Source: Bacteroidetes bacterium RIFCSPLOWO2_12_FULL_35_15 (lineage in GTDB: Bacteria > Bacteroidota > Bacteroidia > 2-12-FULL-35-15). From it: a stretch of DNA of 64,000 nucleotides. Shown here piece by piece: positions 132 through 14,200 of the stretch. The notes under the pieces are model-generated. The model made no database searches. It was not told the DNA's origin and saw only the letters and a list, made by a program, of their open reading frames with translations. The stretch lies in NCBI GenBank assembly GCA_001769385.1, contig MEPB01000045.1, positions 1 through 64,000 of the forward strand, read 5' to 3'. Within the stretch, counting starts at the first letter, position 1. Each line of letters begins with the position of its first letter. The position numbers were made by a program, and so were the translations under genes.

Positions 132-221
132 ATGAAATTAACTTTTAACTTAATAATGTGTATGTGTTTTATGTGTCTGCGAATGCGGAACGGTAGCACT
201 ATGCATTATTGTAAAAGATAA
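132..221 (+). CDS. Cysteine-rich leader peptide of the sulfite reductase operon
   Basis: This 29-codon frame starts with ATG after an A-rich stretch (aaaaaaacagaaaa), the usual Bacteroidota start context. Its centre reads MCMCFMCLRMR and its end MHYCKR, so it has Cys at residues 10, 12, 15 and 27 and Met at 1, 9, 11, 14, 18 and 24. All four Cys codons are TGT. The stop at 219-221 is followed 20 bases later by a perfect hairpin and U-run (242-276), and then by the sulfite reductase start at 306. Peptides like this act in cis: ribosome stalling at codons for the pathway's end product decides whether the downstream terminator forms. Function is inferred from composition, position and the alternative pairing of 185-193 with 247-255. 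A second Cys-rich leader with the same layout precedes cysC. Confidence 0.8.
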   Translation: MKLTFNLIMCMCFMCLRMRNGSTMHYCKR

Positions 222-241
222 ATCAATAAATAGCAAAATGT

Positions 242-276
242 AAAAGCCCTTCCGCAACTAGCGGAAGGGCTTTTTT
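242..276 (+). terminator. Intrinsic terminator acting as candidate attenuator
   Basis: A perfect 14-bp stem (242-255 with 261-274) closes a five-base loop AACTA and runs into six Ts. It lies between the Cys-rich leader frame and the sulfite reductase gene, so it would stop transcription before the first enzyme gene. Its 5' arm CCCTTCCGC (247-255) can instead pair with GCGGAACGG at 185-193 inside the leader frame, with one mismatch, giving a competing antiterminator. It could also be the plain terminator of an upstream gene, but the leader placed directly in front argues for attenuation. Confidence 0.82.
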
Positions 277-3270: not shown

Positions 3271-4797
3271 ATGCCACTATCAACTAATACAAATCAAACA
3301 ATTACAGCAGAAAACCAACTGTTCCCTGTCTTTTTAAAGATGGACCAGCTGCATGTATTAATTGTTGGAGGCGGAACAATTGGGTTGGAAAAAGTTTCTG
3401 CAATTCTGAATAACAGTCCGAAAACAAAAATTACGCTTGTTGCTTTAACCATTAAACCTGAAATTGTTGGCTTTCAAAAGCAGTTTAGCAACCTTACAAT
3501 TGAACGTAAAGCATTTGCGTTAAGCGATTTGGATGGAAAGGATTTGGTAATTGCTGCAACCGGAGACAGGTCAGTTAGTGAACAAATTCGAAAAGAAGCA
3601 ACAGCTAGAAAATTATTAATAAATGTTGCTGACACACCTGATCTATGTGATTTTTATTTGGGTTCTATTGTGAAAAAAGGAAACTTGAAAATTGCAATTT
3701 CTACGAATGGGAAATCACCCACATTAGCTAAACGAGTGAAGGAAGTTTTAAATGAAAGTATCCCTGAAGATATAAACCATGGTATAGAGAATTTGAACAA
3801 ACTTCGCACACATTTAAAAGGTGATTTTGCAACAAAAGTGAAGTTGTTAAATAAAGTAACAGATGTATTTCTTGACAAAAAGGAAAATGCGAAATCGGCT
3901 TTTTACAAGCGCATTTTTTGGATGACCATCTATTCATTATCTGTGATAGGAGTAATGTTGTTTGGTCATTTGCTGTTTACACTTATTCCGCTAACTACAA
4001 TTAGTGATTACTTTTCAGGCTTAGCAACAAGTTTAGATTCTTCCGTTTTATTGTATATGTTATGTGGTTTTGTTGCTCAAATGATTGATGGAGCATTAGG
4101 CATGGCTTATGGAGTGAGTGTAACAACTTTTTTAATGAGTTTGGGAATACCTGCAATTACACCGGCTGTGGCAAGTGCGAGTATGCATGCTTCTGAAATA
4201 TTTACAACCGGAACATCCTCACTTGTTTATATGCGATATAAAAATGTAAACAATAAATTATTCCGGACACTTTTAATTCCGGGTGCTTTGGGAGCAATAG
4301 CAGGTGCATTTACTATATCCTATGTGAGTAAAGATTATGTGAATATTATCAAACCATTTGTTTCGTTATATACATTTACTTTGGGAATTTTGATTGTAAG
4401 AAAAGCATTGAACCTTCATATAAAAACAAGAAGCAGGATCAAAAAAATTAAACCAGTCGCTTTATTAGGTGGTTTTCTGGATTCTGTGGGTGGAGGTGGA
4501 TGGGGGCCAATTGTTACTACTACATTAATTGCTGGAGGAAGAAACATGCGGTATGCGGTAGGTTCATCACATGTTGCTAAATTTTTTGTTGCACTTATTA
4601 GTACCATTACTTTTATTGCAGTGATTGGCTTACATCATTGGCAGGTAATTTTTGGTTTGGTGATCGGTAGCATGATCGCAGCGCCATTATCCATTTATTT
4701 ATCCTTTAAAATTTCAAATAAATGGGGTTTAATATTGGTAGGTTTTTTAGTAATTATTTTAAGTTTAAGAACAATAACTTTTACGTTTATCAAATAG
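3271..4797 (+). CDS. Precorrin-2 dehydrogenase (CysG-N type) fused to a TauE/SafE permease
   Basis: The first 200 or so residues are a siroheme synthase N-terminal domain: NAD-binding GGGTIG at 33-38 and the segment NVADTPDLCDFYLGSI with the conserved Asp. This part would oxidise precorrin-2 to sirohydrochlorin and perhaps insert iron. From about residue 214 to the end there are about eight membrane segments of the TauE/SafE (TSUP) family, a group linked to export or import of sulfite, sulfonates and other sulfur anions. The protein therefore joins a cytosolic cofactor enzyme to a membrane transporter in 508 residues. Transport direction cannot be read from sequence. No CysPUWA, CysZ or SulP gene is visible, so it may be the sulfate entry route or a sulfite safety valve. 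No frameshift or internal stop suggests a recent accidental fusion. Confidence 0.85.
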   Translation: MPLSTNTNQTITAENQLFPVFLKMDQLHVLIVGGGTIGLEKVSAILNNSPKTKITLVALTIKPEIVGFQKQFSNLTIERKAFALSDLDGKDLVIAATGDRSVSEQIRKEATARKLLINVADTPDLCDFYLGSIVKKGNLKIAISTNGKSPTLAKRVKEVLNESIPEDINHGIENLNKLRTHLKGDFATKVKLLNKVTDVFLDKKENAKSAFYKRIFWMTIYSLSVIGVMLFGHLLFTLIPLTTISDYFSGLATSLDSSVLLYMLCGFVAQMIDGALGMAYGVSVTTFLMSLGIPAITPAVASASMHASEIFTTGTSSLVYMRYKNVNNKLFRTLLIPGALGAIAGAFTISYVSKDYVNIIKPFVSLYTFTLGILIVRKALNLHIKTRSRIKKIKPVALLGGFLDSVGGGGWGPIVTTTLIAGGRNMRYAVGSSHVAKFFVALISTITFIAVIGLHHWQVIFGLVIGSMIAAPLSIYLSFKISNKWGLILVGFLVIILSLRTITFTFIK

Positions 4798-10002: not shown

Positions 10003-11277
10003 TTAGATTATCATTCCTGCACCAACAGTCACATTTGTCGACTCATCAATTAAAATTAAACTTCCGGTATTTCTGTTTTTTTTGTATTTGTCAACTATTA
10101 ACGGAGAGGTGGTTCGTAATGTTAAACACGCAATATCATTCAACCCGATTGTTTTATCGTCTTCTATTTTTTCTAAAGTATTGATGTTCACCTTATATTG
10201 AATTTCTTTTATGACACAACGTACTTCTTTTGAAGTGTGTTTCAATGCATATTTCCCGTTGGGTTGTAATTTCTTTTCCGCTAACCAGCAAACCATTACA
10301 TCAATGTCTTGCGTTGCTTCCGGCTGATTATCAGTTTTCACGATCATATCACCGCGGGAAATATCAATTTCATCTTCCAGTGTAAGTGTAACACTCATTG
10401 GTGCAAAAGCTTCTTCCAGTGAGTTATTAAGCGTATCGATGGATTTTATTTTCGAAGTTAATCCTCCGGGTAAAACAGTAATAGCGTCACCTTTTTTAAA
10501 AACTCCACCTGTAATACGACCTGCATATCCTCTATAATCATGGTATTCAGAATTCATTGGACGAATAACATATTGAACTGGGAAGCGGGCATCACTATGA
10601 TTCTGATCATTAGAAATTTTTATGTTTTCCAATAAATACATCAATGTTGGTCCTTTGTACCATTTCATGTTTTTTGAAGCATCAACTACATTGTCGCCCT
10701 TTAGCGCACTGATCGGCAGAAAATGAATATCTGTTGTATCCAGTTTTGCAGCGAAAGCTTCGTAATCTTTTTTTATTTGTTCAAATACTTCTTTTTTAAA
10801 ATCAACAAGATCCATTTTATTCACACAAACAATTACATGTGGAATCCGTAGTAATGAAGCAATATAGGTATGACGCATGGTTTGTTCAATTACACCTTTT
10901 CGGGCATCAATCAAAATGATTGCTGCATTTGCAGTAGATGCTCCTGTAACCATGTTGCGGGTATATTGAATGTGCCCTGGTGTATCGGCAATAATGAATT
11001 TACGTTTTGGTGTTGCAAAATAACGATATGCCACATCAATGGTAATCCCTTGTTCACGTTCTGCACGCAAGCCATCGGTAAGCAATGCGAGGTTTACATA
11101 TTCTTCACCGCGTTTTTCACTGCTGGCTCTTATCGCTTCATATTGATCTTCAAAAATTGATTTTGAATCGTATAATAATCTTCCAATAAGTGTGCTTTTC
11201 CCATCATCAACAGAACCGGCTGTTGTGAAACGTAAGAGGTCCATATCTAAATATCCTGCCGTAGAAAATTCTGTCAT
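10003..11277 (-). CDS. cysN: Sulfate adenylyltransferase subunit 1 (GTPase)
   Basis: CysN is the GTP-hydrolysing subunit that drives APS formation by CysD. It is a translation-factor GTPase: AGSVDDGKSTLIGRLL is the P-loop, ADTPGHIQYTRNM the G3 region and NKMDL the G4 motif, followed by EF-Tu-like beta-barrel domains. At 424 residues it is CysN alone, without a fused CysC kinase. It is the last gene of the minus-strand operon cysC-cysD-cysN, 175 bases after cysD, a gap filled with an extragenic palindrome. Its stop codon touches the receptor stop at 10002, so no separate terminator space exists. Confidence 0.95.
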   Translation of the reverse strand: MTEFSTAGYLDMDLLRFTTAGSVDDGKSTLIGRLLYDSKSIFEDQYEAIRASSEKRGEEYVNLALLTDGLRAEREQGITIDVAYRYFATPKRKFIIADTPGHIQYTRNMVTGASTANAAIILIDARKGVIEQTMRHTYIASLLRIPHVIVCVNKMDLVDFKKEVFEQIKKDYEAFAAKLDTTDIHFLPISALKGDNVVDASKNMKWYKGPTLMYLLENIKISNDQNHSDARFPVQYVIRPMNSEYHDYRGYAGRITGGVFKKGDAITVLPGGLTSKIKSIDTLNNSLEEAFAPMSVTLTLEDEIDISRGDMIVKTDNQPEATQDIDVMVCWLAEKKLQPNGKYALKHTSKEVRCVIKEIQYKVNINTLEKIEDDKTIGLNDIACLTLRTTSPLIVDKYKKNRNTGSLILIDESTNVTVGAGMII

Positions 11278-11452: not shown

Positions 11453-12358
11453 TTAAAAATATCCCGCTTTTTTTCTGTCTTCCATTGCTGCTTCAGAACG
11501 TTTATCATCAATGCGGCTGCCACGCTCTGTAACACGTGTTGCTGCCACTTCTTCCACAATTTCTTCTAATGAATTTGCTTTTGATAAAACAGCTCCGGTA
11601 CAACTTATATCGCCAACAGTCCTGAAACGAACCTGCATTTTTTCAACTTTTTCAGTTGGTTTTAAAGGTATAACATGCGAGTGTGCATAAATTACTCCAT
11701 CCCGTACAAAGCATTCGCGTTCATGAGTAAAATAAATAGAAGGGATCTCGATTTTTTCCTGAAGAATGTATTGCCAAACATCCATTTCGGTCCAGTTACT
11801 GATTGGAAAAACTCTGAAATGTTCGCCAACTGCCTTTTTACCGTTGAAAATATTCCATAATTCCGGTCGTTGATTTTTTGGATCCCATTGTCCGAATTCA
11901 TCACGGTGAGAAAAGAAACGTTCTTTTGCTCTTGCTTTTTCTTCATCTCTACGTGCTCCGCCAATCAATGCATCAAATTTGTAATTTTCGATCGTATCAA
12001 GTAGGGTAACTGTTTGCAATACATTTCTGCTTGCATTAAATCCTTTTTCTTCATTGACTCTTCCGGTATCAATGCTGTCCTGAACAGAGCCAACAATAAG
12101 GTGTGCTCCATATTTTGCAGCAAGGTCATCACGGAAAGTAATTGCTTCTTCAAAATTATGTCCGGTATCAATATGTACTAATGGAAACGGCACTTTGGCC
12201 GGGGCAAAGGCTTTGCGAGCCAAATGAAAACAAATAATGCTGTCTTTCCCACCGGAGAAAAGGAGTGCCGGTCTTTCAAATTGTGCAGCCAGTTCACGAA
12301 TAACATAAATGCTTTCGCTTTCTAATTCTTTTAAATGTGTAAGGTTGTAATTTTTCAT
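11453..12358 (-). CDS. cysD: Sulfate adenylyltransferase subunit 2
   Basis: CysD forms APS from ATP and sulfate together with CysN. It is an N-type ATP pyrophosphatase: SGGKDSIICFHLA near residue 35 is the PP-loop. The 301 residues, the conserved GGARRDEEKARAKERFFS segment and the C-terminal RGSRIDDKRSEAAMEDRKK are all typical of CysD. It lies between cysC (73 bases upstream) and cysN, so one transcript should carry all three. Confidence 0.95.
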   Translation of the reverse strand: MKNYNLTHLKELESESIYVIRELAAQFERPALLFSGGKDSIICFHLARKAFAPAKVPFPLVHIDTGHNFEEAITFRDDLAAKYGAHLIVGSVQDSIDTGRVNEEKGFNASRNVLQTVTLLDTIENYKFDALIGGARRDEEKARAKERFFSHRDEFGQWDPKNQRPELWNIFNGKKAVGEHFRVFPISNWTEMDVWQYILQEKIEIPSIYFTHERECFVRDGVIYAHSHVIPLKPTEKVEKMQVRFRTVGDISCTGAVLSKANSLEEIVEEVAATRVTERGSRIDDKRSEAAMEDRKKAGYF

Positions 12359-12431: not shown

Positions 12432-13010
12432 CTAAATATTTATTTTGTTCAAAATTCTTTTTACACTTTCTTCCACACTCATTTCATTTGTTTTTACTTC
12501 CACATTTGGATTTACCGATGCTTCGAAAGGAGCACTAATTCCTGTAAAATCTTTTACTTCTCCTTTTCTTGCTCTTGCATATAACCCTTTTACATCACGT
12601 TGCTCACAAATTTCTAGTGGTGTATTTACATATACTTCTATAAAATCAGTTGGGCCAATAATTGTTTTTGCAATGTTCCTGATTTCTTCGGTCGGGCTTA
12701 CAAAACAACAGATAGTAATGACGCCACAATTCACAAAAAGTTTAGTTACTTCAGCGATTCTTCGAATGTTTTCAGTTCTGTCAATATCACTAAATCCAAG
12801 ATTATTATTAATTCCTGTTCGGATATTATCCCCATCCAAAACCTGTGTCAGCAATCCTTTTTTATGCAACTCTTGTTCCAAGGCAATAGCAATGGTTGTT
12901 TTTCCGGAACCACTGAGTCCGGTCATCCAAATAGCAATGCCACGCTGTTTAAGCATTTTTTCTTTGTCAGCGCGAAGTAAAATTTTATCGGTTGGAAAAA
13001 TAGTATTCAT
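12432..13010 (-). CDS. cysC: Adenylylsulfate kinase
   Basis: CysC phosphorylates APS to PAPS. WMTGLSGSGKTTIA contains the Walker A loop, LDGDNIRTGINNNLGFS the substrate-binding loop, and FIEVYVNTPLEICEQRD the lid/core motifs of the family. At 192 residues it is the usual stand-alone kinase. It is the first enzyme gene of the minus-strand operon and lies 111 bases after the Cys-rich leader frame, with the candidate attenuator hairpin in between. Bacteroidota that have CysC together with an Fe-S CysH can route sulfate by APS or PAPS; cysQ at 17488 would then remove the by-product PAP. Confidence 0.95.
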   Translation of the reverse strand: MNTIFPTDKILLRADKEKMLKQRGIAIWMTGLSGSGKTTIAIALEQELHKKGLLTQVLDGDNIRTGINNNLGFSDIDRTENIRRIAEVTKLFVNCGVITICCFVSPTEEIRNIAKTIIGPTDFIEVYVNTPLEICEQRDVKGLYARARKGEVKDFTGISAPFEASVNPNVEVKTNEMSVEESVKRILNKINI

Positions 13011-13052
13011 TTAATTTTCTAAACTTTTAATTTAAGAACATCAAAGATAAAA

Positions 13053-13084
13053 CAAAAAGGGCCTTTCCTGTGTGGAAAGACCCT
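13053..13084 (-). terminator. Intrinsic terminator acting as candidate attenuator of cysCDN
   Basis: Read on the minus strand, GGGGTCTTTCC (83-73 of 13000) pairs with GGAAAGGCCC (67-58) around a five-base loop ACACA, with one T-G wobble, and runs directly into TTTTTG. The hairpin lies between the Cys-rich leader frame and cysC. Its 5' arm TCTTTCC can instead pair with GGAAGGA at 13115-13109, an alternative that would prevent the terminator. A ribosome at the leader stop codon (13124-13122) would cover that segment; a ribosome stalled at the Cys codons would leave it free. Confidence 0.82.
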
Positions 13085-13121
13085 AATATTAAAACTAAAA
13101 TATTTTTATCCTTCCTTAAAG

Positions 13122-13196
13122 TTAAATGCAACCCTGCATACAACAAATGAAAGTGTTGTGGTTGACCACTAATTTAAAGAAATTTCTTGTTTTCAT
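13122..13196 (-). CDS. Cysteine-rich leader peptide of cysCDN
   Basis: A 24-codon frame on the minus strand starts with ATG at 13196 and ends TAA at 13122. It begins MKTRNFFKLVVNHN and ends ICCMQGCI, so three of the last seven residues are Cys. About 37 bases after the stop, a stable hairpin and U-run begin, followed by cysC. The layout is the same as at 132-276, but the two peptides share no obvious residue-by-residue similarity beyond Cys/Met richness near the regulatory end. That is expected if the codons, not the peptide, are what matters. The role in attenuation is inferred. Confidence 0.8.
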   Translation of the reverse strand: MKTRNFFKLVVNHNTFICCMQGCI

Positions 13197-13288
13197 TTCA
13201 ATTGTAAATGTAACTTGTTTTTCTTTAATCGAGAAGAAAATTTTGAATACATTTGTTTCTTGATTTTGAATAATCTTATTTTCCAAAG

Positions 13289-14200
13289 ATGAGCATAAAG
13301 AACAATTTACCTGATTTTAGAAAAATAAATACTGTTGATCAGGTTGGTATAGAAGAACGTGTAGCGCGGTTTACAACACGAAGTATAAAAAAAGCTTCAA
13401 AAATGCAAGGCCTGAAAATGGCTTTGAGCATGATCGACCTCACAACGTTAGAAGGGAAAGATACCGAAGGGAAAGTGAAGCAAATGTGCTACAAAGCAGC
13501 TCACTTGCATGATTCAATTCCCGGTTTGCCAACTGTTGCAGCCGTTTGTGTTTACCCTTCTATGGTTAAGGTTGCTAAAGATTCGCTGAAAGGAACCAAT
13601 ATTAAAGTGGCTTCTGTTTCCACGGCTTTTCCAAGCGGGCAATCAACTCAGCAAATAAAACTATTGGATACAAAATTTGCTTTGGAAAATGGTGCCGATG
13701 AAATTGATATGGTAATTTCCAGAGGAGAATTTTTAAAAGGAAATTACAATTTTGTTTTTGATGAAATTGCGTCTATTAAAGAAGCATGTGGGAAAGCCCG
13801 TTTAAAAGTAATATTCGAAACAGGAGAGCTTTCTACCTTGGATAATGTGCGAAAAGTAAGTGAAATAGCCATGTATGCAGGGGCAGATTTTATTAAAACC
13901 TCCACAGGGAAAATTTCTCCTGCGGCAACTATGCCTGTTACTTTGGTAATGTTAGAAGCTATTCGGGATTATTATTATAGTACTGGAAGAATGGTAGGAA
14001 TGAAACCCGCAGGTGGAATTTCCACATCAAAATTAGCTTTGCATTATTTAATAATGGTAAATGAAACATTGGGTGCAGCATGGATGAGTAACGAATGGTT
14101 TCGGTTTGGTGCAAGCAGTTTAGCAAATGATATTTTATTGCAGATCGCAAAAGAAACATATGGCGTTTATCAAAGTCCGGATTATTTTTCAAAAGATTAA
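13289..14200 (+). CDS. deoC: Deoxyribose-phosphate aldolase
   Basis: DeoC splits 2-deoxyribose-5-phosphate into glyceraldehyde-3-phosphate and acetaldehyde. The Schiff-base lysine lies in DFIKTSTGK, and MKPAGGIS near residue 240 contains the second conserved lysine. ALSMIDLTTLEG and VAAVCVYPSMV are further family blocks. At 303 residues it is the longer type, with an N-terminal extension over the 220-residue form. Two aldehyde dehydrogenase-type genes follow, so the operon likely oxidises the acetaldehyde made here. A REP-associated transposase and two palindromes have been inserted between deoC and the dehydrogenase. A possible -7 box TACATTTG lies at 13248-13255. Confidence 0.94.
   Translation: MSIKNNLPDFRKINTVDQVGIEERVARFTTRSIKKASKMQGLKMALSMIDLTTLEGKDTEGKVKQMCYKAAHLHDSIPGLPTVAAVCVYPSMVKVAKDSLKGTNIKVASVSTAFPSGQSTQQIKLLDTKFALENGADEIDMVISRGEFLKGNYNFVFDEIASIKEACGKARLKVIFETGELSTLDNVRKVSEIAMYAGADFIKTSTGKISPAATMPVTLVMLEAIRDYYYSTGRMVGMKPAGGISTSKLALHYLIMVNETLGAAWMSNEWFRFGASSLANDILLQIAKETYGVYQSPDYFSKD

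Follow-up and report, generated by a model that had tools for sequence, protein, structure and literature searches.

The 64,000-nucleotide stretch of DNA analysed here (the window) carries a cysCDN operon on its minus strand, between 13212 and 10003, that is preceded by a short Cys-containing leader ORF and a terminator. In transcription order the region consists of a −7 promoter box, 8 nt, the leader ORF, 37 nt, the terminator, 43 nt, and then cysC, cysD and cysN (Table 1); the names CysD and CysN were assigned from operon context. The promoter box follows TAnnTTTG, given as the Bacteroidota −7 consensus in PMC9723704, and a box of this form (TACATTTG, once TACCTTTG) was present 8–11 nt 5′ of the ATG in all 11 homologous leaders compared. 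Judged by this position, the leader transcript would start only a few nucleotides 5′ of the leader ATG. A DeoC-like aldolase gene (13289–14200) is the divergent neighbour of the leader, and because the terminator sits between divergently transcribed genes it cannot serve any other gene.

Table 1. Features of the cysCDN leader region and of the related element at the start of the window.
Feature	Position	Strand	Basis
−7 promoter box, Bacteroidota type, TACATTTA (consensus TAnnTTTG)	13205–13212	−	sequence and homologue comparison
Leader ORF MKTRNFFKLVVNHNTFICCMQGCI, 24 aa; ATG at 13196, stop TAA at 13124–13122	13122–13196	−	homologues; TGT/TGC variation
Segment 1, TTTCTTTAAA, leader codons 5–8; 10 pairs possible with segment 2	13173–13182	−	RNAalifold and double changes
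Tandem, putatively regulatory Cys codons 18–19 (TGT TGT)	13140–13145	−	aligned copies
Third Cys codon, codon 23 (TGC)	13128–13130	−	aligned copies
Segment 2, TTTAAGGAAGGAT; partners segment 1 (via 13120–13111) or segment 3 (via 13115–13108)	13108–13120	−	
Segment 3, terminator 5′ arm AGGGTCTTTCC; 13081–13074 pairs with segment 2 (antiterminator)	13074–13084	−	
Terminator loop, ACACA	13073–13069	−	
Segment 4, terminator 3′ arm GGAAAGGCCCT	13058–13068	−	
U-tract of intrinsic terminator	13054–13058	−	
Possible secondary −7 box TATCTTTG, 3′ of terminator; no clear −33 element	13042–13049	−	sequence only
cysC, APS kinase	12432–13010	−	Pfam PF01583 (APS_kinase), E 1.7e-62
cysD, sulfate adenylyltransferase small subunit	11453–12358	−	Pfam PF01507 (PAPS_reduct), E 2.2e-45
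cysN, sulfate adenylyltransferase GTPase subunit	10003–11277	−	Pfam PF00009 (GTP_EFTU), E 1.1e-44
Related Cys leader MKLTFNLIMCMCFMCLRMRNGSTMHYCKR before sulfite reductase (306–2417)	132–221	+	compared with serial pairs in relatives
Terminator of the 132–221 leader: AAAAGCCCTTCCGC AACTA GCGGAAGGGCTTTT and U-tract	242–276	+	

The cysC terminator has an 11-bp stem and, together with its U-tract, spans 13084–13054. Folded alone, the hairpin had a ΔG of −17.7 (z = −5.2 against dinucleotide shuffles), and the antiterminator fragment a ΔG of −12.7 (z = −4.3). The antiterminator arises from the core of segment 2, GGAAGGAT, which complements GTCTTTCC within segment 3: GGAAGGA and T13108 form eight consecutive pairs with GTCTTTCC at 13081–13074, a complementarity that exceeded that of shuffled sequences in the window copy (p = 0.016). 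An earlier, sequence-only reading had described a 24-codon frame ending ICCMQGCI before cysC, which we find exactly at 13196–13122. It had also reported the hairpin and U-tract, whose existence we confirm with the arms at 13084–13074 and 13068–13058, 1–2 nt away from the 13084–13073 and 13067–13056 originally given; GGAAGGA had been placed correctly at 13115–13109, its partner TCTTTCC lies at 13080–13074 rather than 13079–13073, and the proposed pairing between GGAAGGA and the 5′ arm of the hairpin was upheld. Terminator-like sites are only weakly unexpected by themselves in such an AT-rich stretch (one found, 0.4 expected), and the window contains many short frames with at least three Cys codons, as would suit a short Cys-containing frame lying by chance beside an unrelated hairpin. 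That explanation is contradicted by orthologous conservation, covariation and association with sulfur genes, and can hardly be credited; the single-sequence tests are moderate to good, and conservation in orthologous positions decides the matter against chance.

Of the 30 best CysC loci, 19 come from the same genus, and 13 of these 19 carry a leader and terminator directly 5′ of cysC; in other families, leaders ending like CCMMCC and followed by a terminator also precede cysC in eight genomes or more (counts by inspection; loci from L020 onwards, except L021, belong to other families). Two further loci (L010 and L011) contain apparently decayed copies, and among the CysC loci inspected the leader was absent from same-genus L015, L016, L018, L019 and L021. 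Homologous peptides end, for example, in MMCCMMCCI, MCCMMCCN, MMCCMICCI or MMCCMMCCD. Codon 19 encodes Cys in all ten aligned copies, codons 18 and 23 do so in nine and encode Phe once each, and the Cys codons swap between TGT and TGC while the amino acid stays the same. The window copy has Gly at codon 22, where the other aligned copies have Cys, so that it lacks one of the four Cys codons that relatives usually have. A covariance model built from nine genus copies, with the window copy left out, matched the window copy at 125 bits (E 1.5e-16, in a search of its own genome).

RNAalifold analysis of 12 copies revealed that leader codons 5–8 (CTTCYATAAA) also pair with segment 2; in this 1:2 helix, seven of nine modelled pairs have changes on both sides. 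Across 21 cysC attenuators from several families, the 1:2 and 3:4 helices together contained 10 double-change pairs in an alignment that had been fitted to that same structure, compared with a shuffled mean of 5.4 and with none of 500 shuffles reaching 10. Distant members keep the 1:2 complementarity in other letters, namely L059 (CTCTTCGC/GCGGAGAG), L063 (CTTTCAAC/GTTGAAAG), L012 (GCTTTCC/GGAAAGC) and L095 (GTTCTTCC/GGAAGAGC), and likewise in L070 despite its differing sequence. By shuffling, it reached p ≤ 0.05 in 16 of 33 loci, related loci among these not being independent, and the 1:2 pairing of the window copy taken alone did not exceed that of shuffled sequences (p 0.31). In the cysC set, 91.7% pairing was obtained for the 2:3 helix, whose nearly invariant sequence there leaves no covariation to be seen. 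Between genes the sequences differ, and for 26 of 31 attenuators 2:3 complementarity surpassed that of dinucleotide shuffles at p < 0.05; segment 2 also fitted its own terminator arm better than the arms of other genes in 29 of 41 cases, a comparison that discriminates weakly since the arms share a CTTTCC core. The sequence-only scheme of leader, terminator and antiterminator is supported as far as it went and was incomplete in lacking the 1:2 pairing, with which the element becomes a four-segment attenuator. The same data bear on whether the leader is instead a functional small peptide, binding metal or acting in redox chemistry via CCMQGC, with the hairpin as its ordinary terminator. A conserved CCxxCC-like tail fits such a role, but the N-terminal half varies as protein and tends to keep RNA complementarity, other sulfur genes are preceded by leaders of unrelated N-terminal sequence and length, pairing between the leader region and the terminator arm would be pointless, and neither Pfam nor NCBIfam holds an entry matching the leader peptides, all of which make this role very unlikely.

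The locus combines a leader ORF containing codons for the pathway end product (Cys at 18, 19 and 23, with cysCDN downstream), a conserved intrinsic terminator between the leader and the first gene, and an antiterminator, the eight-pair 2:3 helix, that excludes the terminator. On this evidence we consider it very probable that the element is a ribosome-mediated transcription attenuator that senses Cys-tRNA(Cys) and controls cysCDN. From these elements we infer that transcription would begin just 5′ of the leader ATG and that a ribosome would start on the leader at once. When cysteine is scarce, the ribosome would stall at codons 18–19 or 23 and leave GGAAGGA uncovered, segment 2 would pair with the terminator 5′ arm, and RNA polymerase would read into cysCDN. 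When cysteine is sufficient, a ribosome at the stop codon would cover the start of segment 2 and the terminator would form; once that ribosome is released, segment 1 could take segment 2 and so preserve the terminator. In the absence of translation, 1:2 pairing would also favour termination, and the default would be to terminate.

The spacing of the segments is consistent with this course. In most loci segment 2 begins 8–11 nt 3′ of the last Cys codon, the position that the leading edge would reach if a ribosome held this codon in its A site. Partition-function calculations were made for the state in which segment 3 has been synthesised and segment 4 has not; nucleotides under the ribosome footprint were excluded from pairing, and the results are equilibrium estimates that depend on the footprint assumed. 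Mean antiterminator occupancy across 14 homologues was 0.55 without a ribosome, 0.74 and 0.79 with a ribosome at the tandem Cys codons and 0.93 at the last Cys codon, as against 0.15 at the stop codon. For the window copy the corresponding values were 1.00 without a ribosome, 0.99 and 1.00 at the tandem codons, 1.00 at the last Cys codon and 0.50 at the stop codon, the last of these becoming 0.87 or 0.08 with a footprint 3 nt shorter or longer. The calculations agree with the earlier proposal that a ribosome stalled at the Cys codons would leave GGAAGGA free, and its counterpart, that a terminating ribosome would mask GGAAGGA, is predicted for the relatives; in the window copy masking is predicted to be only partial, the relatives being sharper. 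The predicted sign of regulation, off when cysteine is sufficient, draws support from conservation, from complementarity that persists although the sequences differ, and from the masking calculation. Segment 1 lies approximately 25 nt upstream of the P site of the stalled ribosome, and how stalling would block 1:2 pairing is explained less simply than in trp; one possibility is that a trailing ribosome over segment 1 could prevent it.

Polycysteine leaders have been proposed for actinobacterial and mycobacterial cys operons, with no conserved terminator (PMC1262725), and leader control of the mycobacterial genes has been described by Canestrari 2020, as related in papers that cite it. The likeness to the cysC element, as far as those accounts describe it, comprises a succession of Cys codons 5′ of cys genes and, judged here by a −7 box that ends 8 nt from the ATG, a putatively leaderless or nearly leaderless start. 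A small, Cys-rich and apparently nearly leaderless ORF of this kind might, as reported for the mycobacterial leaders, control access to cysC translation rather than termination. This is very unlikely here: a strong conserved terminator with a U-tract precedes cysC by 43 nt, no conserved pairing was observed that involved the cysC start, and the cysC element differs from the mycobacterial cys leaders, which are without conserved terminators (PMC1262725), in having both this intrinsic terminator and an antiterminator.

A doubtful but more serious reservation is that the attenuator works and is largely bypassed, with a promoter at the secondary box TATCTTTG supplying much of the cysCDN mRNA, so that control by cysteine is partial; this would qualify the attenuator explanation and is not an exclusive alternative to it. 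Each of the 12 loci examined has TAnnTTTR-like boxes within 110 nt 5′ of cysC, for the most part 3′ of the terminator, and a TATATTTG box stands directly 5′ of cysC in the genomes of L015, L018, L019 and L021, where the leader is absent. Such boxes are, however, frequent by chance in AT-rich sequence, their position is not constant, there is no clear −33 element, and the leader is conserved, which argues for the importance of the attenuated transcript.

Transcription attenuation by leader peptides of the trp and his type is classical. The cysC attenuator resembles these systems in its short leader ORF with cognate codons and pathway genes downstream, and in its mutually exclusive 1:2, 2:3 and 3:4 pairings with an intrinsic terminator. 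It differs in reading cysteine, in that its segment 1 precedes the regulatory codons and does not span them, and in its occurrence in Bacteroidota with an apparently nearly leaderless start and no Shine-Dalgarno sequence. The Bacteroidota are a phylum without Shine-Dalgarno signals, in which attenuation would here operate with a nearly leaderless small ORF; the nearest named relatives are Bacteroidetes MAGs. The uORFC-8-2 motif before cysS in Rhodobacterales, for which attenuation by Cys-tRNA supply has been proposed (PMC8632094), likewise combines an upstream ORF containing tandem Cys codons with a terminator and U-tract. That motif controls cysteinyl-tRNA synthetase, has its Cys codons inside the first stem and belongs to another phylum; the distinction from the cysC element, by position before cysC and by phylum, is drawn from descriptions. 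Within the same phylum as the cysC element, 5′ RNAs with signs of leader peptides occur before amino-acid biosynthesis operons of the fish pathogen Flavobacterium psychrophilum, for which the main text names no amino acids or sequences (PMC9723704). No Rfam family, T-box and riboswitches included, matched the window at gathering score, and a relaxed threshold gave only chance-level matches (the best, PyrR, scored 24 bits where the cut-off is 54). A literature search whose scope took in few subscription journals returned no report of Cys attenuators in sulfate assimilation of Bacteroidota. Little was found on cysteine sensing in this phylum, and the present data point to Cys-tRNA-dependent attenuation as a common route.

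Covariance-model matches were obtained in 37 of 345 genomes of the class and cluster before sulfur genes. The Cys codons and the −7 box are built into the model, which leaves the downstream genes as the independent test; their names outside the window come from reading translations, not from library searches. Among the matches examined these genes were cysC, sulfite reductase, a TauE-like permease, serine acetyltransferase (cysE), homoserine dehydrogenase and a Cys/Met-metabolism PLP enzyme, and some weaker matches had no recognisable leader. An exact 18-nt MCCMMC pattern matched in 3 of 395 genomes and is too strict for a census. Cys-rich leaders with terminators also precede korA (2-oxoacid:ferredoxin oxidoreductase) in four same-genus genomes (L089, L090, L092 and L093), in three of which the antiterminator segment apparently lies inside the leader ORF, and a peroxiredoxin gene is preceded by Cys leaders in two genomes that belong to a single genus (L070 and L095). 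These last two associations suggest an additional control of Fe-S and redox enzymes by the cysteine supply. The exact-pattern search also brought up two leaders from another class of the phylum, where MCCMMCC and a terminator stand before a rhodanese-like sulfurtransferase (L104 and L105), with a promoter of another, TTGACA-like appearance.

Serial arrangements were also found, in which a second Cys leader follows the first. They precede sulfite reductase in same-genus L083, L084, L085 and L088, with an aldo/keto reductase-like gene standing first, ahead of sulfite reductase, in L083 and L088, and they recur in other families before sulfite reductase (L068, L086, L097 and L099); they also stand before peroxiredoxin (L070 and L095) and the PLP enzyme (L098). 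A second terminator was detected in most pairs. The TAnnTTTG box was present at 12 of 12 first leaders, which had been found with the model that includes the box, and at 0 of 12 second leaders, which were selected neither way; without a promoter box of its own, the second leader is probably transcribed only when the first is read through. By comparison with these pairs, the element at 132–276 in the window is probably the downstream half of a serial pair. A second model match in the genome of the window, with a leader ending MMCCMMCI, lies near a contig end (G000:C85:74-213, minus strand), and the first half of the pair is probably on this contig C85, the end of which is not joinable to that of the window with certainty. 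A precedent for such pairs exists in mgtCBR of Salmonella, where tandem attenuators use two leader ORFs in one leader region (PMC3641672). The products of mgtCBR are MgtC, a Mg2+ transporter and a regulatory peptide, whereas in the Bacteroidota pairs both leaders are Cys-coded, have their own terminators and precede sulfur genes; these pairs may be a variant not previously known. If real, serial pairs would multiply the on/off ratio for one amino acid, and with those before sulfite reductase one could naturally test what stacking of attenuators does to a response. On balance we lean towards the view that the class runs sulfur assimilation largely through a Cys-attenuator regulon, with two attenuators in series behind one promoter in several families; such a regulon would take in cysCDN, sulfite reductase, tauE and cysE and, unexpectedly, korA and peroxiredoxin.

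Several further observations concern neighbouring or comparable elements. The window also encodes, at 3271–4797 on the plus strand, a single ORF that fuses siroheme-synthase-like domains to a TauE-type permease. The same kind of terminator occurs without Cys-rich leaders before hisG in six genomes (L062, L073, L076, L082, L094 and L096), and the leader of L094 carries HHHH, which suggests His attenuators of the same design. Elsewhere in the genome of the window (L050, G000:C48:17112-17252), a short Lys-containing leader and a terminator, AAAAACCTTCCCA..TGGGAAGGTTTTT, precede aspartate-semialdehyde dehydrogenase, and GGAAGGGTTT at the end of that leader can pair with the terminator arm.
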